This document shows positions 28,418-43,421 of a stretch of DNA of 64,000 bases, piece after piece; position 1 is the stretch's first letter; each line of letters opens with the position of its first letter. The stretch is from assembly GCA_016218715.1 (NCBI GenBank), contig JACRDG010000032.1:1-64000 (forward strand), written 5' to 3'. The translations under genes were made by a program, and so were the position numbers. Source of the stretch: Desulfomonile tiedjei. GTDB lineage: Bacteria; Desulfobacterota; Desulfomonilia; Desulfomonilales; Desulfomonilaceae. The notes beneath the pieces are model-generated. The model did no database searches. It was given only the letters and a program-made list of their open reading frames with translations, and was not told the origin of the DNA.

Positions 28418-29419
28418 ATGGAAGAGAAAGCTGGGCGAGTCTTCATCACCGATTGCGAGGGACCCATTACCAAGAACGACAACGCTGCGGAGCTTGCGGA
28501 AGCCTTTATCCCGGGAGGGGACCGATTCTTCCGCAAGATCAGCCTGTACGACGACTACCTTGCTGAAGTGGTGAAGAAGCGAGGCTACAAGGCCGGGGAC
28601 ACACTTCGGCTCATTCTGCCGTTCTTCAAGGCCTTCGGCCTGGATAACCGCAGCATGGGAAAATTTTCCCGACGCAATATCGAATTGATTCCCCAGGCCG
28701 ACTGTATGCTCCAGCAGGTATCGGACGTGATGCCGACCTACATCGTGAGCACCAGTTATTCGCCCTACATCAAATCAGTGTGTGAGGTGATCGAGTTTCC
28801 GTTCATGAACACGTATTCCACCGTGGTGGATCTGGATCGGTACGAGCTCTCCGGGGAGGAGCACAAGGCGCTCAAAGGTATCCACGCTCGTATCCTCGAC
28901 CTGCCGGATTTCCTGATCCCGTCCGTGGGAGGGTCGCTGGACGACCTGTCGGCGGAGGACAAGCAGGCCTTGAAAGACTTGGATGAGATCTTCTGGGGAG
29001 TTCTGCCCGGGATGCGGATTTTCCGAATCATCGAGGACGTCAATCCCATCGGAGGCCGGGAAAAAGCCAGAGCGATCGAGCAGATTATCGAACTTGAAGA
29101 CGCGAGCCTCCAGGACGTGATTTACGTTGGAGACAGCATCACCGATGTGGATGCGTTCCGGATGGTGAAACGCGGGGGAGGACTGGCGGTCTCGTTCAAC
29201 GGGAATGACTGGGCGGTGAAGGAGGCTACCTATGCGGTGACGGCTCAAAACGCCCTCCCCATAGGATGGGTCGCGATTATGTTCTTGAACCAGGGGCTTG
29301 CTGGCTTCGAGGACCTCACGGTGAGCCCGGTCACCGAACAGACGGTGGAAAGGATTTGCCGGGAGAGTTCCAGGATCAGGAAGAGCGTCCGGACGGAAAA
29401 GATCGGCACACTGGGATAA
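28418..29419 (+). CDS. HAD-superfamily hydrolase-like protein
   Basis: This is a 333-residue protein; ATG 28418 has GGAGGG close upstream. The HAD nucleophile motif appears as FITDCEGPITKND near residue 8, where DxE replaces the usual DxDxT; the C-terminal acidic motif is DVIYVGDSITDVDAFRMVK near 230. The pattern resembles a group of archaeal and anaerobe HAD proteins that includes the one annotated as subunit R of the Eha hydrogenase, though no Eha genes are here. The substitution at the second Asp leaves phosphatase activity uncertain. It probably belongs with the PfkB kinase upstream. Confidence 0.7.
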   Translation: MEEKAGRVFITDCEGPITKNDNAAELAEAFIPGGDRFFRKISLYDDYLAEVVKKRGYKAGDTLRLILPFFKAFGLDNRSMGKFSRRNIELIPQADCMLQQVSDVMPTYIVSTSYSPYIKSVCEVIEFPFMNTYSTVVDLDRYELSGEEHKALKGIHARILDLPDFLIPSVGGSLDDLSAEDKQALKDLDEIFWGVLPGMRIFRIIEDVNPIGGREKARAIEQIIELEDASLQDVIYVGDSITDVDAFRMVKRGGGLAVSFNGNDWAVKEATYAVTAQNALPIGWVAIMFLNQGLAGFEDLTVSPVTEQTVERICRESSRIRKSVRTEKIGTLG

Positions 29420-29462: not shown

Positions 29463-30800
29463 TCAGTACAGGTAGGGAATGAACTTCCAGGTGCGCTTCC
29501 GATATTCTGCGTAGTCAGGGAACTTCTGTACGAGCAGGGGCTCTTCTTTGATGGACTTCAATACGTAGAGCCCTGCGCACAAAACCAGGGGAACGATGGA
29601 AAACCACGCCCCCCACGCGATGACGTACCCTGCCAAGCCAGCCACAACCCCTGTGTACATCGGGTGCCGGATCAGCGAGTAGACTCCGGTGGTGACGAGA
29701 GTCCCGCTCCGTCTGGGCGCGGCAAAGACGCGGAAATTCCTCCCGAGCGCACGAAAGCTCAACAGCCCCAACAACAACCCGACCAACCCTAGAACCCCGC
29801 CGACTATCTGGTGTATGGGCGTTACCTCTCGGGAAAAGATCGTGTGCTCGACGGGCGCGCCGATCAGGGTGAGCAGGGCCATGGTAATGTACCCGTACGA
29901 AATGGCGCGAACGTCTGCTCCACGGCGCTCCGCGTCCCGATGCGGCCGAGTCAGGCCGAACGGGCCGGTGCTCTTTTTCCCTCGCTCGATCAGAATCAGG
30001 TAGAGGATGCCCCAATTCAAATTGTAGACCGACGTGAAACCGAGCTTTCTGAGCATGAGAGCGACAGCAGGAGATCGGTGCCCGGAGAAGCAGGTCACCA
30101 GGACCGGTCGGTCCTTTGGTTTATCCCGGGCGGCTTCGCTCACCCCCGCGCCCCACGGGAAGTTTTCCGCTCCCTGCATCCGGTTCCAGTAGAACTCGGG
30201 TTTGGTGCGCACATCCACGATCCACGTGTCTTCCGGCAGTGTGTCGAGGCGCCACGGCGCAATTGGCCGTGCCCCGCCGGCGACGGTCACCAGTTCGCCA
30301 CCGAGGATCAGGTGGAGCAACAACATCCCGGTCCCCGGTCCATTCCCTTGCAGGCCGTCCATGACGTGTTCCCGGGAAACCGGTCCCAGGATCAGCGCGG
30401 TCTGAGCCGCATATACCACTGCGAGAACGCCCCACGCGACCCATCCCCACGCGCTCCCGGTGAGGATACAGAGTGCCAGCAATCCCAAGAGGATGGATGT
30501 GGTGAGCGGATGGATGAGGTATGTTCCGTGGACACGCGCAAACAGGTGTCCGTCCTCGGATACGGACGGCATGAACAGAAAGTAGCTGACCAGCCCGGTC
30601 AGAGAAAAGACCAAGAGGAATCCCGCGGGTACTGCGGCTGCCAATAAGCCGATTAACTCGTACGTCCCGAGCGCCCGCCCGATGAATCCCGTATCCACTG
30701 CAATCGCTCCCACGACGACGAGCGCTACGGCATAGGATGCGACGGTGGGCAATCGACTCTCTTGGAGCCATTCCAGCCTTTTCATAACCTTAGACGTCAA
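29463..30800 (-). CDS. Membrane protein with internal rhodanese domain and C-terminal isoprenylcysteine-type methyltransferase domain
   Basis: This is a 445-residue protein with three parts. The first about 175 residues hold four to five membrane segments. Residues about 180-275 look like a rhodanese domain (TWIVDVRTKPEFYWNRM, then VLVTCFSGHRSPAVALML with a Cys in the active-site loop). From about 295 on, more membrane segments lead to GVYSLIRHPMYTGVVAG near 385 and EEPLLVQKFPDYAEYRKR near 425, the ICMT/PEMT-type SAM-binding region. Start is TTG 30800 (GAAGG six bases before) or ATG 30785. A sulfur-transfer or reductase partner for methylation is possible; the function is unknown. Confidence 0.8.
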   Translation of the reverse strand: MTSKVMKRLEWLQESRLPTVASYAVALVVVGAIAVDTGFIGRALGTYELIGLLAAAVPAGFLLVFSLTGLVSYFLFMPSVSEDGHLFARVHGTYLIHPLTTSILLGLLALCILTGSAWGWVAWGVLAVVYAAQTALILGPVSREHVMDGLQGNGPGTGMLLLHLILGGELVTVAGGARPIAPWRLDTLPEDTWIVDVRTKPEFYWNRMQGAENFPWGAGVSEAARDKPKDRPVLVTCFSGHRSPAVALMLRKLGFTSVYNLNWGILYLILIERGKKSTGPFGLTRPHRDAERRGADVRAISYGYITMALLTLIGAPVEHTIFSREVTPIHQIVGGVLGLVGLLLGLLSFRALGRNFRVFAAPRRSGTLVTTGVYSLIRHPMYTGVVAGLAGYVIAWGAWFSIVPLVLCAGLYVLKSIKEEPLLVQKFPDYAEYRKRTWKFIPYLY

Positions 30801-32827: not shown

Positions 32828-34408
32828 ATGCTGGATGGCAAGAATATCCTGATCGTTGGAGCACGATCCGGCGGATATGGCGAAGCGATTGCGCGATCCG
32901 CAGTGCAGGCGGGGGCCAGAGTCTTCGGCACCTCCCTGAGCCCTGAAGACCCAAGAGAAACCGCTTTCTTCGAGCTACTCGGGGTCGAACTCGTCGGGGT
33001 GCCCCTGAAATATCATTTCGACAAGAGGCGCGCGGTCTTCGGGCAACTGGCGGCCATAGAGGAATGGCTCAGATCCCACGGCGTGGAGCGCCTGGACGCG
33101 ATCGTACACACGGTCGCAGGCGGCTTCCCACGGCAACCGTCGGTCATGAAGGCGGTCGGCGAGATACTCAAGGGGAACGACACCTTCACGAACATGGCTA
33201 CCACGGTCAAGCGGAACGTGTACTACGTCAACGCAGGGTCTTTTCAGGATACGATCAACGGCCTGGCAGGGCTGACCCACGACGGAACTCACTTCGTCGC
33301 GCTCACCTACCGGGGCGACTTGCCGTACTTTATCTGGCACAGCAAGAAATATCTCGAACGGATTGCCCTCCGAATGGCTCGAAAGGGGAAACGCACGCTC
33401 GTCGCGGCCTTGCCCGAAGCCTGGACCCAATCGTCCCAGTTCTTCACCGGGATCGAAGTTGCCATCCTTCATAATTACCTTGCGGACCTCAGAGAGCGAC
33501 CGGTGGTCAGAGAAGAATTAGCACAAGCCTATCACGACATGGAGCGATCTCTCGAGGATTTGGAGGGGTTTCCTGGCTTGCTGGACACCTTGCAGGGCTT
33601 CCTGAAGGATCAATGGCCCGACATCACGTCGTCAGCTGACTCCGGGATATTGTATGGTGCCGTGCAAGATCTCTTCGCACGTTTGAGAGCAGACGGGAGG
33701 TTCCCGGTCTTGCGCCGAGCGGTGGAGACCATTTCGGAATTCGTCCGAGCCGCATCCGGTTTCATCGTCGCGAGTGAGTTTCTCGACGCGGGCAGGTATC
33801 AGCCCGGAGACGTGCGGCAGGTCTTTTACAGCGATCTGACCTGCCGGACCGACATCAAAACCGCGGCGCCCTGGGAACCGCTACGCTCGGCATCGGATAG
33901 GAATCGCACCTGGCTGGCCTTCGGAAAGGACGAGATTCGAGAGACTCTCAGCATGTACGGGAAGAACTTCCTGTTTTTGGATCGAGCGGTGATCGAAGTG
34001 GGGGACATCAGGGACGGGTTGATCGGATTCGGCTCCTTCACCGTCCCGACGCCCGAGGAGAACCCGATTCTCAAGGACCATTTCGTCGGCCTCCCCCTCT
34101 TCGGCGGGCACCTCCAGATGGAGGCGGTCGCGCAGCTAGGGACCTTCATGATATTGAAGCTTCAGAAAGAGAAGAGACTGGTCCCTATTCTGACCGGCAC
34201 GGAATTTCCCAACCTCAATACCATGGCGCCGCCGGGAGAAAAGCTTGCCATGATGGGTACCATTCGTCTCCAAGGCAAGCGGCTCCTCGCGTGCGAAGCG
34301 TTCATCGAGAATCGTTTCGCTCGATCCCGGGGCACGGTTCGCGGGATGGTTATCCCGGAACGTCTCGTCCGCAAGACCATGACGTCTTTCAGCTCCGACG
34401 ACGATTGA
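32828..34408 (+). CDS. Fusion of a FabI-like enoyl reductase/SDR domain and a FabZ-like hotdog dehydratase domain
   Basis: This is a 526-residue protein. The N-terminal about 255 residues are an SDR of FabI type: VGARSGGYGEAIA glycine loop near 11 and YFIWHSKK with Tyr 167 and Lys 174, the YX6K spacing of FabI. After a helical stretch, residues about 370-505 match FabZ: FLFLDRAVIEVGD, then DHFVGLPLFGGHLQMEAVAQ with His 418 and Glu 432, the same 14-residue spacing as the FabZ catalytic pair. One chain could therefore dehydrate and reduce a 3-hydroxyacyl thioester. No acyl carrier protein or ketosynthase is adjacent. A terminator follows at 34462. Confidence 0.82.
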   Translation: MLDGKNILIVGARSGGYGEAIARSAVQAGARVFGTSLSPEDPRETAFFELLGVELVGVPLKYHFDKRRAVFGQLAAIEEWLRSHGVERLDAIVHTVAGGFPRQPSVMKAVGEILKGNDTFTNMATTVKRNVYYVNAGSFQDTINGLAGLTHDGTHFVALTYRGDLPYFIWHSKKYLERIALRMARKGKRTLVAALPEAWTQSSQFFTGIEVAILHNYLADLRERPVVREELAQAYHDMERSLEDLEGFPGLLDTLQGFLKDQWPDITSSADSGILYGAVQDLFARLRADGRFPVLRRAVETISEFVRAASGFIVASEFLDAGRYQPGDVRQVFYSDLTCRTDIKTAAPWEPLRSASDRNRTWLAFGKDEIRETLSMYGKNFLFLDRAVIEVGDIRDGLIGFGSFTVPTPEENPILKDHFVGLPLFGGHLQMEAVAQLGTFMILKLQKEKRLVPILTGTEFPNLNTMAPPGEKLAMMGTIRLQGKRLLACEAFIENRFARSRGTVRGMVIPERLVRKTMTSFSSDDD

Positions 34409-34967: not shown

Positions 34968-36050
34968 ATGACGCAATTCAAATGGGATCTGTGCGCGTCC
35001 GAAGACAAGATAGCCGAGCTTGCATCCGTTGTGGAGGGGGCGAGTCGGCGGAGGATTCTGATCCTCTGCCATAACAACCCGGATCCCGACACGATGGCCA
35101 GCGCGTTCGGCTTACAGTTTCTCCTCAGCAAGAAATTCAACGTTCGTTCGACTCTGGGGTATGGTGGGGTCGTAACGCGGGCTGAAAACCAGGCCATGGT
35201 GAAGCGGCTGCGCATCAAGATGACCCAGATGTCTCGTGTCAAGCCGCATCAATACTATGCAATCGCCATGGTAGACGCTCAGCCCGGCACGGGGAACAAC
35301 CTCTGCCCGAAAGGCGGCATGGCCCCGATGATCGTCATCGACCACCATCCCCTGCGGAAGGCATCTCTCAAGGCTAATTTCCACGACATCCGACCCGATT
35401 ACGGCGCCACCTCGACCATCGTCGCCGAATACATCGCCGCCGCGGGACTGACGCCGACTCGATCGCTGGCGAACGCGCTCCTCTACGGGATAAAGACTGA
35501 TACTGATTCTCTGGTAAGAGGTGCGTCCAGGGCTGATTTTTTGGCATTTCGGTATCTCTTCCCGTTCACGAACCCTCGGGTGGTCGGGCTCATCGAAAAA
35601 CCGTGCCTGTCGCAGGAATACTTCGAAGATTACCACCGCGGTTTGACAAACGCGAAGCTCTACAAGGACGTGGCAGTCGCCTGGCTCGGCGAGATTCATT
35701 CCGGGGCGATCATACCGGAACTGGCGGATCTCCTTCTCAGAATCGACGGAGTCTGCTGGGCTCTCTGTTTCGGGATCTCCGACAACCTGTTAATCGTTTC
35801 GCTGAGGTCGACGGCCCGGCTTCACGACGCGGGAATGGTTATTCGCCGGCTAGTGGGAAAGTCCGGGGCTGCGGGCGGGCACAGGAGGATGGCAGGAGGC
35901 CAGATTCCCGTCGGTGACCTGAGTCCCGAAGATCAGGCCGAACTGCCCCAGAAGCTGGTGTGCAAGTTCCTGAGAACCATCGGTAGAGAAGGGGTGCACC
36001 CGCGGCCTCTCGTGAACTCCGCGCCTGGCGAAGAGAAAATCCCCAACTGA
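34968..36050 (+). CDS. DHH/DHHA1-family phosphoesterase
   Basis: This is a 360-residue protein. Metal-binding motifs in order: HNNPDPDTMASA near 35 (motif I), AMVDAQPG near 99 (II), MIVIDHHPL near 122 (the DHH motif III) and YGIKTDTDSL near 175 (IV). DHHA1 shows GAAGGHRRMAGGQIPV near 300, the GGHxxxAG substrate loop. It is close in layout to NrnA-type nanoRNases and pAp or cyclic-dinucleotide phosphatases. The exact substrate cannot be told. It is convergent with the trehalose operon. Confidence 0.87.
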   Translation: MTQFKWDLCASEDKIAELASVVEGASRRRILILCHNNPDPDTMASAFGLQFLLSKKFNVRSTLGYGGVVTRAENQAMVKRLRIKMTQMSRVKPHQYYAIAMVDAQPGTGNNLCPKGGMAPMIVIDHHPLRKASLKANFHDIRPDYGATSTIVAEYIAAAGLTPTRSLANALLYGIKTDTDSLVRGASRADFLAFRYLFPFTNPRVVGLIEKPCLSQEYFEDYHRGLTNAKLYKDVAVAWLGEIHSGAIIPELADLLLRIDGVCWALCFGISDNLLIVSLRSTARLHDAGMVIRRLVGKSGAAGGHRRMAGGQIPVGDLSPEDQAELPQKLVCKFLRTIGREGVHPRPLVNSAPGEEKIPN

Positions 36051-36077: not shown

Positions 36078-37331
36078 TTACTCGTGCGGTTTCATCTCAA
36101 GCTCGACCCGTTCCTCATCCCCGTATATTAGGGCGACCATAAGGCTCAGGTACTCTTTGACGTGACGGGTGATGAGGAAATCCTCTCGGACAAGTTCCTT
36201 CGCCTTCAGACCCATTTCCTGGGCCCTCTCCGGACGCTGCAGCAGATGCCTGATCCGCAACGCAGCACCCTCGGGAGTGTTGACAAGAAAACCGGTATGA
36301 TGGTTCACCACCTGAAGGCGAATCCCTCCGGTATTGCCTCCGATCACTGCTTTCCCTTTCCACATGGCCTCGGTAACGGTCAGGCCGAAGCCTTCCTTGA
36401 TGGATTTCTGCACCACGATGTCGGCCGACCGCTGGAGCGCGTTGATTGTCACATGCGCGTCGGGAGGAAGCAGAAGGATGTGTGCGTCCTTGTCCTCATT
36501 GACTTCGGAACGAACTTCCGCCAAAACGGCTTCCCCCTCCGGATCGTCGGTCGCTTCGCCGCCGGCAAGAACCAGTTGCAGCGAAGGAGCGAAGGTTTTG
36601 GCCAAGCGATACGCGCGGATCACCCCAACCGGGTCCTTGAAGCGATCGAACCGCGAGACCTGCAGCATCATCGGCCTGTCCGGATCAATGTTGAATTTCG
36701 TGCGAATCCCGAGCACTTCGCTTTCCGGTAAATCCATGTTCTTTTCGCTCAAAGGATCGATACTCGGCGGTATGAGATAGAGGGTGTGCGGCAGAGGCTG
36801 AGCGAAATCGGACAGGGAAAAGACGCTCGCATCATAGTCGACCACGAACTTGCGGAGATACTTCCACACGGGCCGGTAAGGATGGCTGAGGTCGATATGG
36901 CAGCGCCAGACCCACTTCCCCTTTCGGTTCGGGCACGCTTTCAACAGCGGTAAAGGCTGCGGATCGTGGATAAAGACGATATCCGCCTCTTCCAGGATGC
37001 GACGAAGTTCCTCGGCATTTTCCGCGTTGGTACGCTCGTAGACCTTCAGGAGCGTGTCGGCCATGGGAACTTGTTTTCCTTGCACGCCGTTGTGGAAGTT
37101 TTTCGTGCATTCATAGAACCTTTCCCCGCCGCGTATCACTTCCCATACAGCGTCCAATCCCAGTTCTTTCGTAAGGGGGACGAGCTTGACAAGTATCTCG
37201 GCAACGCCGCCGCCGAGTCTCGTCGAATTGACGTGAACGACCTTGAGCCCCTGGAGCGGAGCTGCCAATTGACGGAGGTGGTTTATGACATCTTCGCCCG
37301 CAACGGCAGCATAATCTTGGATCGCGGTCAT
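36078..37331 (-). CDS. treT: Trehalose synthase, glycosyltransferring (TreT-like, GT4)
   Basis: This is a 417-residue protein. ATG 37331 is chosen because AGGGAGG lies just upstream and MTAIQDYAAVAGEDVI is the family start; a longer frame runs into the DUF5752 gene. VVHVNSTRLGGGVAEIL near 30 binds the acceptor side, VSRFDRFKDPVGVIRAY near 230 and KSIKEGFGLTVTEAMWKGKAVI near 305 carry the GT4 donor motif (EX7E). TreT makes trehalose from NDP-glucose and glucose and can work in reverse. It overlaps DUF5752 by four bases, as the last gene of the trehalose operon. Confidence 0.87.
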   Translation of the reverse strand: MTAIQDYAAVAGEDVINHLRQLAAPLQGLKVVHVNSTRLGGGVAEILVKLVPLTKELGLDAVWEVIRGGERFYECTKNFHNGVQGKQVPMADTLLKVYERTNAENAEELRRILEEADIVFIHDPQPLPLLKACPNRKGKWVWRCHIDLSHPYRPVWKYLRKFVVDYDASVFSLSDFAQPLPHTLYLIPPSIDPLSEKNMDLPESEVLGIRTKFNIDPDRPMMLQVSRFDRFKDPVGVIRAYRLAKTFAPSLQLVLAGGEATDDPEGEAVLAEVRSEVNEDKDAHILLLPPDAHVTINALQRSADIVVQKSIKEGFGLTVTEAMWKGKAVIGGNTGGIRLQVVNHHTGFLVNTPEGAALRIRHLLQRPERAQEMGLKAKELVREDFLITRHVKEYLSLMVALIYGDEERVELEMKPHE

Positions 37332-38005
37332 TGCTGCCTCCCTTTGAAATAATCCTCGAATATGGACGCCAACTGCTCGCGCAATTCCTTGAGCGTAACG
37401 AAATAGGGGTCCACCGATGCCAGCAGGTAGCACAACTCCTGGTCAGGTTCATCGGAACATCTCAGCCAGGAGCGAAAGTCGTCCAGACTGATCGGATGCC
37501 GGCGCCTCGCATCAACGAAGTGGTAAAAAATGGACCCCACGGAGATTCTCGGTACGACCTCCGGGAGTTCCTCAGGGCGTTCAATCCTTCTCCCGGTATC
37601 GAAAACGACTATTTGGGAGCGGATGAAGTGAAATTGCTGATCCAGCTCGACCCACCTGGGGTGTTCTACATCCTCCAGTCTCTGCTCGATGATTTCGACC
37701 ACCTCCTGCCGGAGAAGGTCCAGCGTATAGTAATCGGTGGGATCGATCACCGCGAGACGTTCGGCCAGGATGTCGTCGTGTAGTGCATAATGGCACCAAG
37801 TGGCAAAATCATTGTGGAACTGCGGGTCGGCGAACGCCGGCCGTAGACGCCCCCCCCAGAAGTGGTAATAGACGCTTCCCGGATGAGTCTTCAGCAACCC
37901 TTCTCGCAGCTCTCTCAGGTTCTGGGCCTTATCTCCTGTCGCGATGGCGATGAGAGAGCAGTCCTTAACCGAAAAGGGTTCCTTACTGCCATTTTCCAAG
38001 GACAT
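37328..38005 (-). CDS. DUF5752-family protein
   Basis: This is a 225-residue protein; ATG 38005 follows GGAGGAAAG. It appears to hold two related halves: an N-terminal one with KTHPGSVYYHFWGGRLRPAF and NDFATWCHYALHDDILAERLAVIDP, and a C-terminal one with VGSIFYHFVDARRRHP, DDFRSWLRCSDEPDQELCYLLASVDP. The repeated S(V/I)(F/Y)YHF and W-D-LA-IDP motifs suggest an internal duplication. The family has no assigned function. Its coupled position before treT suggests a regulatory or stabilising partner of trehalose synthesis. Confidence 0.72.
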   Translation of the reverse strand: MSLENGSKEPFSVKDCSLIAIATGDKAQNLRELREGLLKTHPGSVYYHFWGGRLRPAFADPQFHNDFATWCHYALHDDILAERLAVIDPTDYYTLDLLRQEVVEIIEQRLEDVEHPRWVELDQQFHFIRSQIVVFDTGRRIERPEELPEVVPRISVGSIFYHFVDARRRHPISLDDFRSWLRCSDEPDQELCYLLASVDPYFVTLKELREQLASIFEDYFKGRQQ

Positions 38006-38066
38006 TGGACTTTCCTCCACAAAAACATTCCCGCGCAGCCATACCCCAGTTCCCATTCATTCACTT

Positions 38067-40907
38067 TTAGCCTGACCGGCGCGACGTTCGAGGCGCTGCG
38101 CGGCTGCGGTTCTTGGAATGTACGAGCAATGCCACAGGAAAATGTTCCAAGGCTTCGGCCACGGCATGAGAATTCCCGGTAAAAACAGGCTGATTCGTGA
38201 GCACGTTTGTCCACTCGGAAGGCGCGGCAGGGGGCAACACTATCTCAGTGTCGGGCCATACCTCGCGGCCGAGGGGGAGCGCACCCTCTTCAACGACCGA
38301 GGTCAGGAACCTGGGAGCGATGGTGAGGCTCCAACTGCCGGACTCTTCCCGTGCAAAGGCCATGATATGGTTCGCAAAGGTCCCGGAAACCCTGAGACCT
38401 ACATAAACGCCTCGCTGGAAGAGGGTGCTGTAGAAGTTTCGCGCCTCGAGCACTTTTGCGATCAGAAAGAGTTTGACCCTTCCGTCCTCCTTGTGGGAAA
38501 GCAGTTCCTGCACCAGGCCCAGGAGGCCCGAGCGGGCTTGCCGGCTCAGTTCCCGGAGCCATGAAGCTCTCTGCCGGAAATCGACAGGGCGTCGATTGTC
38601 GGGGTCCACTAGACTCAGATCCCAGAGTTCCGTCCCCTGGTACAAATCGGGAACACCGGGTGAAGTCATCTTGATCAAAACCTGTGAGAGGCTGTTCAGT
38701 ATTCCGTAATGGGCAATCTTCTTCTGGAACGGCACGAACTCGGGTAGGAAGAGATTTTCTTTTGACGGCTCCAGGATTGCTTTGGCAAAGGACAGGTAGG
38801 CCTCTTCGTACTCGGCATCCGGCTTTATCCACGCAGTATGCACCTTCGCCTCCCGGACGGCTTTGATGATGTAGCTGCATATTCGTTCCACAAACGCGGG
38901 GTAATCGATCGCACCAAATGGGAACGCTCCTACCAACGTCTGGTAGAGGAAGTATTCGTCGTTCTTGTCCGGCATGGTCGCGCGTTTCAGCCGTGTCTTC
39001 TTGTTCCTGTTCAGTCTGCTCCAGAGTTTGATCTTACTTTCCCATTCCGCCGGGATCTCGGAGAGCACGTTTATGCGGGCTCTCACGTCTTCGCCTCTCT
39101 TCGTGTCGTGCGTCGCAGTGGCATTGAGCGTGTCCGGCCAGCGCCTCTGCCTCTTCCGGTTGAAACGATGAAACCTTTTGACCGGGCACCCGAAAAGGTC
39201 AGGTCGGCCGCCCACTTCGTTGAGAGAAAGCAGCCTGTTGTACACGTAGAGCGCAGTGTCTTCGAATCCTTTGGCCATCAACGGTCCGGTCAACTGCTGA
39301 AACCGCATGGCCACCTTCAGCCAATCGGCCTTGTGCGCTTCTTCCAGGTATGCGGGGTATTCCAGCAGGAGAAAGCGTTTGATAAACATCAGCTCGTCGA
39401 AGAGCGCTGGATTGGAACTGACGGCTTGGGCGATGGCCGTGCGGATATACTCACGGTCGGTATCAGCAACGGCTTCCCGATGCGTGTAGGTCCTGTACAC
39501 CGGGAACGCTGCAAGGACCTCCATCAAGGCTCTCCGCAGCCCGTAGAGGGTTACGTCCATGCCGTGTCGATCTCGGCTGGACACGGTTTTGAGGAGCTGC
39601 GCCAAGTTATTGACGTCACCGGCCATGTGTTCCAGGATTATCAGCCTCTTCTTCTCTCGGGCCAAGTCTCCGAAATGAACCCTGGCCCCGGTGAACTCGG
39701 AGTAGATCCTTCTGAAGGTCCGCTCGTTCCTTCTCACACAAAACAATGCGTTGACATAATTGAGGAAGTCATAGCCGGTTGTACCCTGAACGGGCCAGGA
39801 ATGGGGAAGGTCCTCATTCGGGTCCAGTATTTTTTCCACGAGCACGTATATGTCCGGGGCTCTGCTTCTTATGCGCTGGAGGTACATATGCGGGTCGTGC
39901 AGCCCGTCGACGTGGTCGATGCGCAAGCCGGCGATGTGTCCTCTGTCGATCAGATCGAATGTCAGGCGGTGTGTATGCTCCAGCACCCCTTGTTCTTCAA
40001 CCTTGACCGAAATAAGATCGTTGACATTGAAAAACCGTCGATAGTTTATTTCCTTGGTGGCGATTTTCCAGAAAGAGAGCCGGAAGTGCTGCCGGAACAA
40101 CAGATCGTCGAGTAGGGCGAAGCTGTCGGGATTCCCTCTCTCTCCGTTGAATGCACGAAGGTTCTTGCGGACGAAGGCCTTGAAGTCGCTGTTGGACGAA
40201 TAGAGATCCCAGAGCATCCTCTTAATGAATTTGACCTGCTGGTAGTAGCTCCCCTCGATTGACTCTTCGGAAGTGATCGTTCGCAACACATAGAGCACGC
40301 CCAAGAGCTTAATAAAATCGGGATGATCTTCCCCGAGTTTTTTCTTCAGAGATCCCAATCCATGCGAAAAGAAACTTGCATAATAATCGATGCTCACCGG
40401 AAAGACGAGGTGGAAGTATCGCACTGCCAGCCCTTCCTGTGCATAATGCAAGGTTATCTCCCCGTCTTCCAGCGTCTGGCCGTAAAAGCGCCCGAGGAAC
40501 GGGGCAAGGACCCTCCCCTTGATGTTTTCGTAGCTGTGTTCCCAATCGATATCGAAGAAGGGAAAGTATCCGGACCGTTGCCCGCTTTCGAGGATGTCCA
40601 TCAGCATCTCGTTCTGGGAATCGAAAGCCATGTGGTTCGGTACCACGTCCTGTACCCAGTCCATTCCCTTTTCCTTCAAGGCGTCCACGAGGTGCTCGAA
40701 ATCCTGAACCGAGCCCAATTCGGGGTTCAGTTGATTTGGGTCGACCACGTCGTAGCCGTGTTGGCTGCCCTTCCTGGCCTTGAAAATGGGTGACGCGTAA
40801 AGATGGGTGACGCCGAGCTTGGCGAGATAAGGTACGACCTTGCGTGCGTCTTCGAAGCCGAAGGAGGGACTGAATTGGATGCGATAGGTCGCTACGGGAA
40901 CACGCAT
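38067..40907 (-). CDS. treY: Malto-oligosyltrehalose synthase
   Basis: This is a 946-residue GH13 enzyme that turns the reducing-end alpha-1,4 bond of a maltodextrin into the alpha,alpha-1,1 bond of maltooligosyltrehalose. ATG 40907 has GGAAGGGG about nine bases upstream. The start PVATYRIQFSPSFGFEDA, YASPIFKARKGSQHGYDVVDP near 40, DVVPNHMAF near 88, LRIDHVDGLHDP (nucleophile region, near 325) and ILVEKIL-type acid region (VYVLVEKILDPNEDLP) are all TreY hallmarks. Length is at the upper end of the family. It sits in the operon between GH57 and DUF5752. Confidence 0.94.
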   Translation of the reverse strand: MRVPVATYRIQFSPSFGFEDARKVVPYLAKLGVTHLYASPIFKARKGSQHGYDVVDPNQLNPELGSVQDFEHLVDALKEKGMDWVQDVVPNHMAFDSQNEMLMDILESGQRSGYFPFFDIDWEHSYENIKGRVLAPFLGRFYGQTLEDGEITLHYAQEGLAVRYFHLVFPVSIDYYASFFSHGLGSLKKKLGEDHPDFIKLLGVLYVLRTITSEESIEGSYYQQVKFIKRMLWDLYSSNSDFKAFVRKNLRAFNGERGNPDSFALLDDLLFRQHFRLSFWKIATKEINYRRFFNVNDLISVKVEEQGVLEHTHRLTFDLIDRGHIAGLRIDHVDGLHDPHMYLQRIRSRAPDIYVLVEKILDPNEDLPHSWPVQGTTGYDFLNYVNALFCVRRNERTFRRIYSEFTGARVHFGDLAREKKRLIILEHMAGDVNNLAQLLKTVSSRDRHGMDVTLYGLRRALMEVLAAFPVYRTYTHREAVADTDREYIRTAIAQAVSSNPALFDELMFIKRFLLLEYPAYLEEAHKADWLKVAMRFQQLTGPLMAKGFEDTALYVYNRLLSLNEVGGRPDLFGCPVKRFHRFNRKRQRRWPDTLNATATHDTKRGEDVRARINVLSEIPAEWESKIKLWSRLNRNKKTRLKRATMPDKNDEYFLYQTLVGAFPFGAIDYPAFVERICSYIIKAVREAKVHTAWIKPDAEYEEAYLSFAKAILEPSKENLFLPEFVPFQKKIAHYGILNSLSQVLIKMTSPGVPDLYQGTELWDLSLVDPDNRRPVDFRQRASWLRELSRQARSGLLGLVQELLSHKEDGRVKLFLIAKVLEARNFYSTLFQRGVYVGLRVSGTFANHIMAFAREESGSWSLTIAPRFLTSVVEEGALPLGREVWPDTEIVLPPAAPSEWTNVLTNQPVFTGNSHAVAEALEHFPVALLVHSKNRSRAAPRTSRRSG

Positions 40908-40991
40908 CGGCAAATACCCCTTCCGCGGCGAAATTTGTGCCGCTTCGCGTTCAAGCGAGTCATTACTGGTTGAAAAGCTGCTCGTAACGGC

Positions 40992-43421
40992 TCATGCGCG
41001 GATATTTATCCAGAGCTTCTCCGCCACATCGCTGATATGATCGATCCATTCCGCCGCGTGGGCGTCGCCTCGATCCGCCTGGCGTTGAAAATCCGAGTAT
41101 CGGTCCTCGATTATTTTGTAACAGACGTTCTGGATACTCCGAAGGTTGACCTCGAACGGCATCGATCCCACGAGGGTGACGGATGCACGGAGGTTCCGGA
41201 GCAGCTCCACGTTTTGCGGATCTTCCGAGAAGCGGTCCGCTGTTCGCTCCATCCCTTTTCTCAGGGCGAATTCGAGCGTGGTCGCATCCAACGGGATCCC
41301 GGCCAGACGCGTCTCTTCAAGTAGGGCCTCGACTGACTGAGGATCGACCGGGTCTTCCTGGAACGCATGGCGAAGCTTGTCATTCAAAACAAATCCCGCG
41401 GCCGCGTGGAGTTGCTGGGGCAACGGTATGCCAGAATCGAAGAGGAAGCGTATCAACGGGGCGTAGCGGTCGTAGATCTGGCTGTACAGCGCCAATGCTT
41501 CGGCCTGGGTCGGTTCGAGGATCAGCGCCAAGGCCTCACGTTGCTGATCGTAAAAGAGCGAGGTAATCGAGTAGTTGGCCGCGCCGAAATGCTTGTCCAT
41601 GAGGCGGATGCTTTCCGGAAAGTCCGCCCGGGTAAAAGCCTCGGATAGCTCCTGCAGCACGGCCTCGTACTGTTCTTCATCCTCGTACTCGCTGACGCCG
41701 CAGTTGAGGTTATGGTCTCCCATGTGCAGGACGCCGAACATCAATGTTGCAGATTCCCGGGTAATGTTCGAGGTAAACCTGGCGCGGCCCACCGCACACT
41801 TGACCCTCCCGACCTGGGAACCCTGGTAATCTTCCTGGGTCACGGAGTACGAGAAAACCGAGCTTTCCTCGGCATATTCTTCAAACATGGAGTTGATGGC
41901 ATAATGAACCGCCACCTTGGTCAGGTCCACCATGGAAGGTCTGACCCACTTCTCGTAAATATTCCGCCCATTTCGATACTCCGGAATGTTGCTGCGAGCC
42001 TGCTCCAGCCGCTCGAGGAACGGCTCTTCGAGGGCGGCACCGAACAGTTCTTCCGCGAGCTGCACCGCACGGCCGGCATACCGCAGGACTTGGACGGTCT
42101 CGATGCCGGAAAGCTCGTCAAAGAACCACCCACAACTGGTGTACATGAGCATCGCGTGACGTTGCAGCTCAAGAAGCTTCAAGGCACGGATCGTCTCGGC
42201 CTCGGTCAGGGTGTGGAGCGCGTGCCGGTGAAAGAATACTTCGACAGACTCCGGGGAACGCTCCGACATAATCGTGATGTAATCGTTTCGCGCTCCCCAG
42301 GGATTCTTGAGAAGCACGCCCGCGGCAACCTGGTACGCGAGCGCCAGGGGGTCTCTGAGCCAGTCCAAGGCAGCCCTGAGCGGGCCGCGCCACTCCTGAT
42401 TCCAGTGGGGATATCCGCCGGAATTGCACCCGCAGTTTGCCCGCCAGCGTTCTATCCCGTGCACGCAGCTCCAGGAGCTGTTCGCGAAGATCTCCACCTC
42501 GTGCGTCGGTGGGCACAATTCGAGATATTCCGCGTAGTTGGTGAGGCGAGCAAGGCCTTGGGATTCGATGTGATCGAGTGCATAGGCGAGCGCCATGTCG
42601 CCGTTCTTGTGGTGATGGCCGTAACTCTCCCCGTCGGTGGCTATGTGCGCAAGCTGAGGCCATGTCCGTTCTGCGTTGAACGCTTCGAGCAGCCTGTCGG
42701 CAAAAGCCTCACCATTGTTCAGCAGACCCTCGAACGCCACTGCCTGGGATATGGGACCGTCGTAAAAGAAAAGGCTTATGGATCGGCCTGACGGCAATAC
42801 AAGCTTGTAGGCCATCGTCGGGTCGATTCTCCCGCCGCTCACGTCCTGCCAATCGCCTTTTCCGACGGGCCGAACGCGATGAGCCTGATTCGGTGCGAGG
42901 AGCGTAAAAAGGATTCCGTTCTCGCTGAGGATTTCCAGCGTCTCGATGTCCACCGCGGTTTCCGGCAGCCACATCCCCTCGGGCCTGCGCCCGAACCGGT
43001 ATTCGAAGTCGGCAATTCCCCAGATGACCTGCGTTCCTTTGTCTCTGCGGTTGGCAAGGGGGAGGATCATGTGATTGTAGGGCTGGGAGAGCGCCGAGCC
43101 ATGCCCCGAAAAGCGCTGCCGGCTCTCCCGATCGGCCTCCAGAATCGCTTCGTACGTAGCCGGAGCGTGCTGTTCCATCCAGGCCAGGAGCGTCGGCCCA
43201 AAGTTGAAGCTGATCCTGGAGTAGTTGTTCACCAGGCGGGTTATCCTGCTCTCACCGTCCAATATGCGCGAAGTAGCATTGGAAGCATAACACTCCGCGG
43301 TAATCCGTTCGTTCCAGTCATGATAGGGATAGGCGGAATCCTGAAGTTCAATGGCCTCCAGCCAAGGATTCTCTCGAGGTGGCTGATAGAAATGGCCGTG
43401 GATGCATGCGTAACGCTCCAT
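40992..43421 (-). CDS. Glycoside hydrolase family 57 protein with DUF3536
   Basis: This is an 809-residue protein. The GH57 catalytic part occupies about residues 1-330: ACIHGHFYQPPRENPW at the start (metal or substrate His), GMWLPETAVDIETLE near 145 with the nucleophile Glu, and HIATDGESYGHHH near 255 with the acid Asp. DUF3536 covers most of the remainder. Family members act on alpha-glucans as amylases, branching or transferase enzymes. In this operon it could trim or supply the maltodextrins used by TreY, taking the place of a debranching enzyme. It lies four bases after treZ. Confidence 0.85.
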   Translation of the reverse strand: MERYACIHGHFYQPPRENPWLEAIELQDSAYPYHDWNERITAECYASNATSRILDGESRITRLVNNYSRISFNFGPTLLAWMEQHAPATYEAILEADRESRQRFSGHGSALSQPYNHMILPLANRRDKGTQVIWGIADFEYRFGRRPEGMWLPETAVDIETLEILSENGILFTLLAPNQAHRVRPVGKGDWQDVSGGRIDPTMAYKLVLPSGRSISLFFYDGPISQAVAFEGLLNNGEAFADRLLEAFNAERTWPQLAHIATDGESYGHHHKNGDMALAYALDHIESQGLARLTNYAEYLELCPPTHEVEIFANSSWSCVHGIERWRANCGCNSGGYPHWNQEWRGPLRAALDWLRDPLALAYQVAAGVLLKNPWGARNDYITIMSERSPESVEVFFHRHALHTLTEAETIRALKLLELQRHAMLMYTSCGWFFDELSGIETVQVLRYAGRAVQLAEELFGAALEEPFLERLEQARSNIPEYRNGRNIYEKWVRPSMVDLTKVAVHYAINSMFEEYAEESSVFSYSVTQEDYQGSQVGRVKCAVGRARFTSNITRESATLMFGVLHMGDHNLNCGVSEYEDEEQYEAVLQELSEAFTRADFPESIRLMDKHFGAANYSITSLFYDQQREALALILEPTQAEALALYSQIYDRYAPLIRFLFDSGIPLPQQLHAAAGFVLNDKLRHAFQEDPVDPQSVEALLEETRLAGIPLDATTLEFALRKGMERTADRFSEDPQNVELLRNLRASVTLVGSMPFEVNLRSIQNVCYKIIEDRYSDFQRQADRGDAHAAEWIDHISDVAEKLWINIRA

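Follow-up and report, generated by a model that had tools for sequence, protein, structure and literature searches.

The gene at positions 32828-34408 of the window, the 64,000-nucleotide stretch of DNA analysed here, encodes a natural two-domain protein in which an SDR domain of the FabMG type, predicted to be an enoyl-ACP reductase, is followed by a FabZ-like hotdog domain. The fusion is probably a bifunctional enzyme of elongation within type II fatty-acid synthesis, a reading in which we infer both activities, ACP as the carrier, the cofactor, dimerisation and the housekeeping role. The original prediction, made from the sequence of the window, had described the chain as a FabI-like reductase joined to a FabZ-like dehydratase; the fusion itself, the enoyl-reductase type of its SDR and the FabZ-type fold of its second half all stand, whereas the reductase turns out to be of the FabMG type and not FabI.

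A single chain with two domains

The window lies on contig C108 of a draft genome of 5.55 Mb (G000). The fusion is encoded by a single open reading frame on the plus strand with an ATG start, and the first Met of its 526 residues is invariant in an alignment of 14 homologues (A1), from which two further full-length homologues, L010 and L006 (its reading identical to that of L023), were left out together with three partial homologues; a second alignment (A2) took in L010, L019 and L020. The features of the gene and its downstream neighbour are as follows:

32828..34408, plus strand: gene for the fusion of a FabMG-type enoyl-ACP reductase with a FabZ-like hotdog dehydratase (activities predicted), 526 aa; from the reading frame, the 14-row alignment and the predicted structure
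32828..33850, plus strand: FabMG-type SDR domain carrying additional long helices, residues 1-341; from PF22046, hhalign, Foldseek, and VIA against 6KIA
33326..33346, plus strand: Yx5K pair Tyr167/Lys173, predicted to be catalytic, residues 167-173; invariant in 14/14 rows, aligned to Tyr260/Lys266 of FabMG chain 6ki9
33851..33910, plus strand: variable linker, residues 342-361; low identity, and low pLDDT at 353-357
33911..34390, plus strand: FabZ-like hotdog domain, residues 362-521 (about); from hhalign, a model of the domain, Foldseek and VIA
34079..34123, plus strand: His418 and Glu432, putative catalytic pair of the hotdog domain, residues 418-432; invariant in 14/14 rows
34968..36050, plus strand: DHH-family phosphoesterase gene (PF01368, PF02272), downstream neighbour for which no shared function is claimed

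The division into an SDR at the N terminus and a FabZ-like hotdog domain at the C terminus is supported both by sequence profiles and by predicted structure. The window protein shares 55-66 percent amino-acid identity with the 13 other aligned rows, a figure that resolves into 55-65 percent for the N domain, 60-75 percent for the C domain and 21-38 percent for linker residues 342-365. An AlphaFold2 model of the full chain has a mean pLDDT of 79.6; values fall below 50 in the active-site loops 98-103, 117-131 and 165-168, so that the geometry of these loops is only putative, and loop 421-424 of the hotdog domain is also of low confidence. As regards the folds, the structure-prediction check proposed with the original prediction came out in its favour, both an SDR fold and a hotdog fold being found. 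In the domain search the window protein exceeds the cut-off of PF22046 and lies under that of PF07977 (see below).

An origin by chance or assembly artefact is ruled out by the presence of 15 full-length homologues in 18 genomes of the same family. Misassembly is not the explanation because the whole chain is read in these 15 genomes, and the other three drafts hold pieces that abut contig ends; the reading frame is a real protein of two domains.

The N-terminal FabMG-type domain

The first 341 residues form an SDR of the FabMG type, for which enoyl-ACP reductase activity is predicted from sequence and fold. The window protein matches PF22046 (FabMG) at 34.3 bits (E 1.5e-8), above the curated Pfam cut-off of 27 bits; in a six-frame genome search with the same profile at E 1e-5, the window genome itself lay below threshold, and the G006 homologue reached 39 bits, neighbours in frame included. 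Comparison of the fusion N domain with eight FabMG proteins of the phylum by hhalign gave a probability of 97.6 (E 4.3e-12). Structural searches led to the same relative: Foldseek placed FabMG (6KIA) at rank 1 for the AlphaFold2 model (E 1.5e-10), and VIA-align gave 6kia_A as top match (Z 26.1, 329 residues aligned, rmsd 3.6), the shared fold including long helices above the Rossmann core. After FabMG, the VIA list consists mostly of FabI and InhA at Z about 20-22.

The residues that distinguish the two reductase types point in the same direction. Tyr167 falls on Tyr260 of FabMG and Lys173 on Lys266 in a profile alignment with chain 6ki9, and both residues are invariant in the 14 rows. The motif of FabMG is given as Yx5K in a review (PMC9260719), which also reports that FabMG no longer complements E. 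coli fabI(Ts) when it carries Y260F or K266A. The original prediction had read a FabI-type YX6K pair at Tyr 167 and Lys 174; position 174, however, is K in only 4/14 rows (A in 6/14, R in 3/14, H in 1/14), and the FabI-type Yx6K is ruled out on this ground. Since Lys is found at 173 in all rows and at 174 in four, the motif is the Yx5K of FabMG, and the earlier FabI motif, being off by one residue, takes the FabI assignment down with it. The cofactor motif of FabI, defined as Gx5SxA in the same review (PMC9260719), is missing as well: the fusion SDR carries G11-A-R-x-G-G-Y-G, without SxA in the expected place. The only FabI NCBIfam model listed for the fusion scores 14.9 bits against an equivalog cut-off of 299. 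It is of note that the SDR is a FabMG-type domain and not plain FabMG, given the fused hotdog domain and the length of 526 aa.

The C-terminal hotdog domain

Residues from about 362 to 521 form a FabZ-like hotdog domain, whose dehydratase function is predicted from sequence and model, and which is not called FabZ here. Modelled alone, the domain has a mean pLDDT of 84.4 and ends in a C-terminal helix. The best 50 PDB matches of this model in Foldseek are all FabZ, and in VIA it aligns with E. coli FabZ cross-linked to AcpP (6n3p_B) at Z 17.0 over 141 residues, FabA following lower at Z about 13-14. Comparison by hhalign with eight FabZ proteins of the phylum gave a probability of 95.6 (E 1.1e-8). 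His418 and Glu432, which the original prediction had singled out for their FabZ spacing of 14, are invariant in all 14 rows, in agreement with that claim.

The FabZ equivalog cut-offs are nevertheless missed by a wide distance (23.9 vs 155.15 bits for TIGR01750 and 26.6 vs 113 bits for NF000582), and the window protein scores 17.4 bits with PF07977 (FabA-like) against a Pfam cut-off of 23, a cut-off exceeded in 11 of the 17 matching family genomes. In addition, G-G-H in the fusion takes the place of P-G-V in the FabZ rows.

Taxonomic distribution

The window's family, termed f1 below, is related to sulphate reducers and is probably Desulfomonilaceae (Thermodesulfobacteriota). A search of 60 related genomes detected the fusion gene in 18/18 genomes of f1, that of the window included, and in none of the 24 genomes of a class-mate family (f2), while three genomes elsewhere in the phylum gave weak matches to the hotdog part only. 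In 15/18 f1 genomes the match spans essentially the whole chain, and in three drafts it is broken into pieces. Among 395 genomes sampled from the phylum, full-length matches occur in five, all of family f1, and two others match in the hotdog part only. In the survey of taxonomic spread, which the original prediction had suggested, full-length matches come from family f1 among the related and phylum genomes covered.

These figures describe family f1, its class-mates f2 and the phylum samples; outside the phylum, coverage consists of a contig scan with the single window protein, which returned one locus, a homologue with 61 percent identity from a MAG labelled Desulfomonile sp. A link to plasmids or phage-like contigs is ruled out, no match having been found in plasmids and no relative of the fusion among 61 pattern matches in viral_contigs.

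Genomic context

The fusion gene stands apart from the fab genes, as had been stated in the original prediction: the fab cluster lies on another contig (C79), and a link of the fusion gene to a fab operon is ruled out by this separation. In G000 the cluster runs fabD, fabG, acpP, fabF and then glyA, in an order that is the same in G005 (in G000, fabD, acpP and fabF were identified by Pfam, and fabG and glyA were named by eye, together with a PF13561 match). Neither fabZ nor fabI was found beside the cluster in either genome.

The immediate surroundings of the fusion gene are conserved. The DHH phosphoesterase gene lies downstream on the same strand in 10/10 loci compared, and a divergent gene, phosphoribosyltransferase-like by eye and with no Pfam match, lies upstream in 8/10. 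This conserved neighbourhood argues for vertical descent and not for a special lipid cluster.

Several other genes of the window deserve mention in their own right. The gene at 29463-30800 (minus strand) encodes one chain in which a rhodanese domain precedes a domain of the phospholipid/isoprenylcysteine methyltransferase type, with homologues in 4/10 loci compared. A 333-aa protein encoded at 28418-29416 (plus strand) is 58-68 percent identical in four compared loci and has no Pfam match at 1e-4. The block at 36078-43421 (minus strand) encodes a trehalose-synthase-type glycosyltransferase, a DUF5752 protein, a 948-aa alpha-amylase family protein and a GH57/DUF3536 protein, and probably concerns sugar storage or osmolyte metabolism.

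Other dehydratases and enoyl reductases in the genomes

In f1, searches for further dehydratases of the FabA/FabZ type returned the fusion itself. With TIGR01750 in 99 genomes, 16/18 f1 genomes match, always in the fusion and none over cut-off, against 1/24 in f2 (27.7 bits) and 54/57 in the rest of the phylum. With PF07977 in 60 genomes, 17/18 f1 genomes match, again always in the fusion, and in the 18th (G012) the gene is cut before the hotdog domain; one of 24 f2 genomes matches. Taken over both searches, the 18 f1 genomes hold no FabA/FabZ-type match other than the fusion. Within f2 (G018-G041), 23/24 genomes are without a FabA/FabZ-type match, fabG, acpP and fabF are clustered in G022, and FabI-like matches occur in one genus. 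Because 23/24 f2 genomes show no FabA/FabZ match and none has the fusion, another dehydratase must exist in the class, and it might also work in f1.

Among enoyl reductases, the FabI model NF005908 finds a strong match in a single genome of the 18 of f1 (G005, 178.4 bits), which was confirmed as FabI (448.6 vs a cut-off of 337); weaker matches in G006 and G015 (about 59-62 bits) were assigned to the ordinary SDRs on the strength of their scores alone. In G000, PF13561 has 14 matches. The motif was read in ten of them, and all ten have Yx3K and none the FabI motif; the four others sit in long multidomain proteins. A FabK-like protein of G000 scores 259 bits, below the FabK cut-off of 453; its gene is more likely catabolic because it sits among CoA and beta-oxidation genes (those for acyl-CoA dehydrogenase, enoyl-CoA hydratase, AMP-ligase and methylmalonyl-CoA mutase). 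The same model matches only broken or weak pieces and megasynthases in G004 and G005. The FabV search gave no match in the 18 f1 genomes, nor in its 14 controls, so that absence is not to be deduced from it. G000 also has an MFE-2 protein with a MaoC-type hydratase domain.

Two megasynthases were observed in G000, at L110:4142-12160 (on the window's contig C108, at about 251-259 kb) and at L109:2200-12864 (contig C4). These proteins of 2673 and 3555 aa carry nitronate-monooxygenase-like, KS, AT, ACP, KR and DH domains, the larger also carrying a phosphopantetheinyl transferase, and each has a counterpart of like length in G005 (KS, SDR and FabK-model matches).

Proposed role of the fusion

In the scheme considered probable, the C-terminal hotdog domain would dehydrate (3R)-hydroxyacyl-ACP by means of His418 and Glu432, which would lie, as in FabZ, where two hotdog domains meet in a dimer, and the N-terminal FabMG-type SDR would next reduce the resulting trans-2-enoyl-ACP with NAD(P)H through Tyr167 and Lys173. 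In f1 the fusion would contribute the last two elongation steps, with fabD, fabG, acpP and fabF making up the rest of an ordinary type II system, and would replace a free-standing FabZ in all f1 genomes searched and a free-standing FabI in nearly all. It is tempting to extend this scheme to a history in which f1 lost its free-standing dehydratase and, nearly always, its enoyl reductase, one essential fused enzyme passing enoyl-ACP from site to site; this extension is put forward tentatively, as a possibility that falls short of even chances, and the idea that the enoyl intermediate is handed between the fusion domains is speculation. If it were true, such a sole fused replacement would stand midway from dissociated (type II) to megasynthase (type I) synthesis, and the enzyme would probably be triclosan-insensitive, as is FabMG.

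Some observations count against an elongation role: the gene does not adjoin the fab genes, its conserved neighbour being a DHH phosphoesterase; the hotdog domain scores far below the FabZ equivalog cut-offs and shows G-G-H for P-G-V; the two megasynthases of G000 stand beside the MFE-2/MaoC hydratase as further candidates; G005 has a clear FabI; and the dehydratase that must work in f2 might also serve f1. In a rival reading, both domains would be active, with CoA thioesters or a special acyl chain as substrate (in storage, detoxification or a secondary lipid), and housekeeping would be performed by another dehydratase, for instance of MaoC type, and another reductase. The original prediction had suggested that the protein might serve such a special acyl chain. 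The position of the gene away from the fab genes agrees with this, as do the class-mates in f2 that manage without FabZ and without the fusion, the MFE-2/MaoC and FabK-like proteins of G000 and the FabI of G005. An accessory lipid enzyme would nevertheless not usually be present in 18/18 family genomes, no FabA/FabZ-type match other than the fusion occurs in f1, FabK-model matches in G004 and G005 are limited to broken or weak pieces and megasynthases, and the closest characterised relative, FabMG, can replace FabI in E. coli according to PMC9260719. The general elongation role fits better because of the 18/18 presence, the lack of any other FabA/FabZ-type match in f1 and the occurrence of FabI in only 1/18 genomes, and the special-chain or CoA function is judged unlikely.

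It could also be supposed that the reductase alone is active and that the hotdog domain is a structural or ACP-docking part, which would suit its low FabZ scores, the G-G-H near the active site and the low confidence of loop 421-424 in the full model; the invariance of His418 and Glu432, the better conservation of the C domain than of the N domain and the lack of another FabA/FabZ-type match in f1 genomes make this very improbable. That the SDR is a ketoacyl reductase, making the chain KR-DH instead of ER-DH, is hardly credible, since the weak N-terminal matches to FabG and to fungal fatty acid synthase subunit alpha that suggest it span the cofactor-binding half, the motif is Yx5K as in FabMG vs Yx3K in the ten other SDRs read, FabMG and then FabI/InhA top the fold lists, and fabG is already present in the fab cluster.

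Comparison with known systems

FabMG (PDB 6KI9/6KIA, PF22046), an SDR enoyl-ACP reductase from a soil metagenome, shares with the fusion the fold over residues 1-341, Yx5K, the long extra helices and the motifs H-x-x-AGG-x-P-R and TxSS-x-x-F-x-G-x-E, the structural alignment showing about 18 percent identity. As described in PMC9260719, FabMG is a single 438-aa enzyme, in contrast to the 526 aa of the fusion; it has longer inserts and no hotdog domain. The phylum sample contains eight strong FabMG matches, with open frames of 440-544 aa, all of them from families other than f1. FabI has in common with the fusion the SDR fold (Z about 20-22) and an enoyl-reductase-type active site, but the fusion differs in having Yx5K and not Yx6K, no Gx5SxA, no FabI model near cut-off, extra helices and the hotdog domain. 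With FabZ, the fusion shares the hotdog fold, the His/Glu pair 14 apart and the pattern HF...P...L-x-x-E-A-x-x-Q, and it differs in scoring below the equivalog cut-offs, in its place behind a reductase, in G-G-H for P-G-V and in the C-terminal helix.

The original prediction knew of no standard named protein with this domain order, and no published description of a FabMG-type SDR followed by a FabZ-like hotdog domain was recognised in the open-licence literature, judged mostly from listings. The fusion would bring a distant branch into the range of the FabMG reductases, a recent discovery, would account for the 'missing' fabZ and fabI of f1 genomes, and would provide a two-domain system for a direct test of enoyl-ACP hand-over.

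The ER-DH segment of fungal type I fatty acid synthase likewise places a reductase before a hotdog dehydratase in one chain; its reductase, however, is a FabK-like flavin TIM barrel in a chain with other domains, whereas the fusion consists of an SDR and a hotdog domain alone. The parts are known and the architecture is new: type II synthesis is the textbook dissociated pathway, to which a family-wide natural ER-DH fusion would add an architecture.
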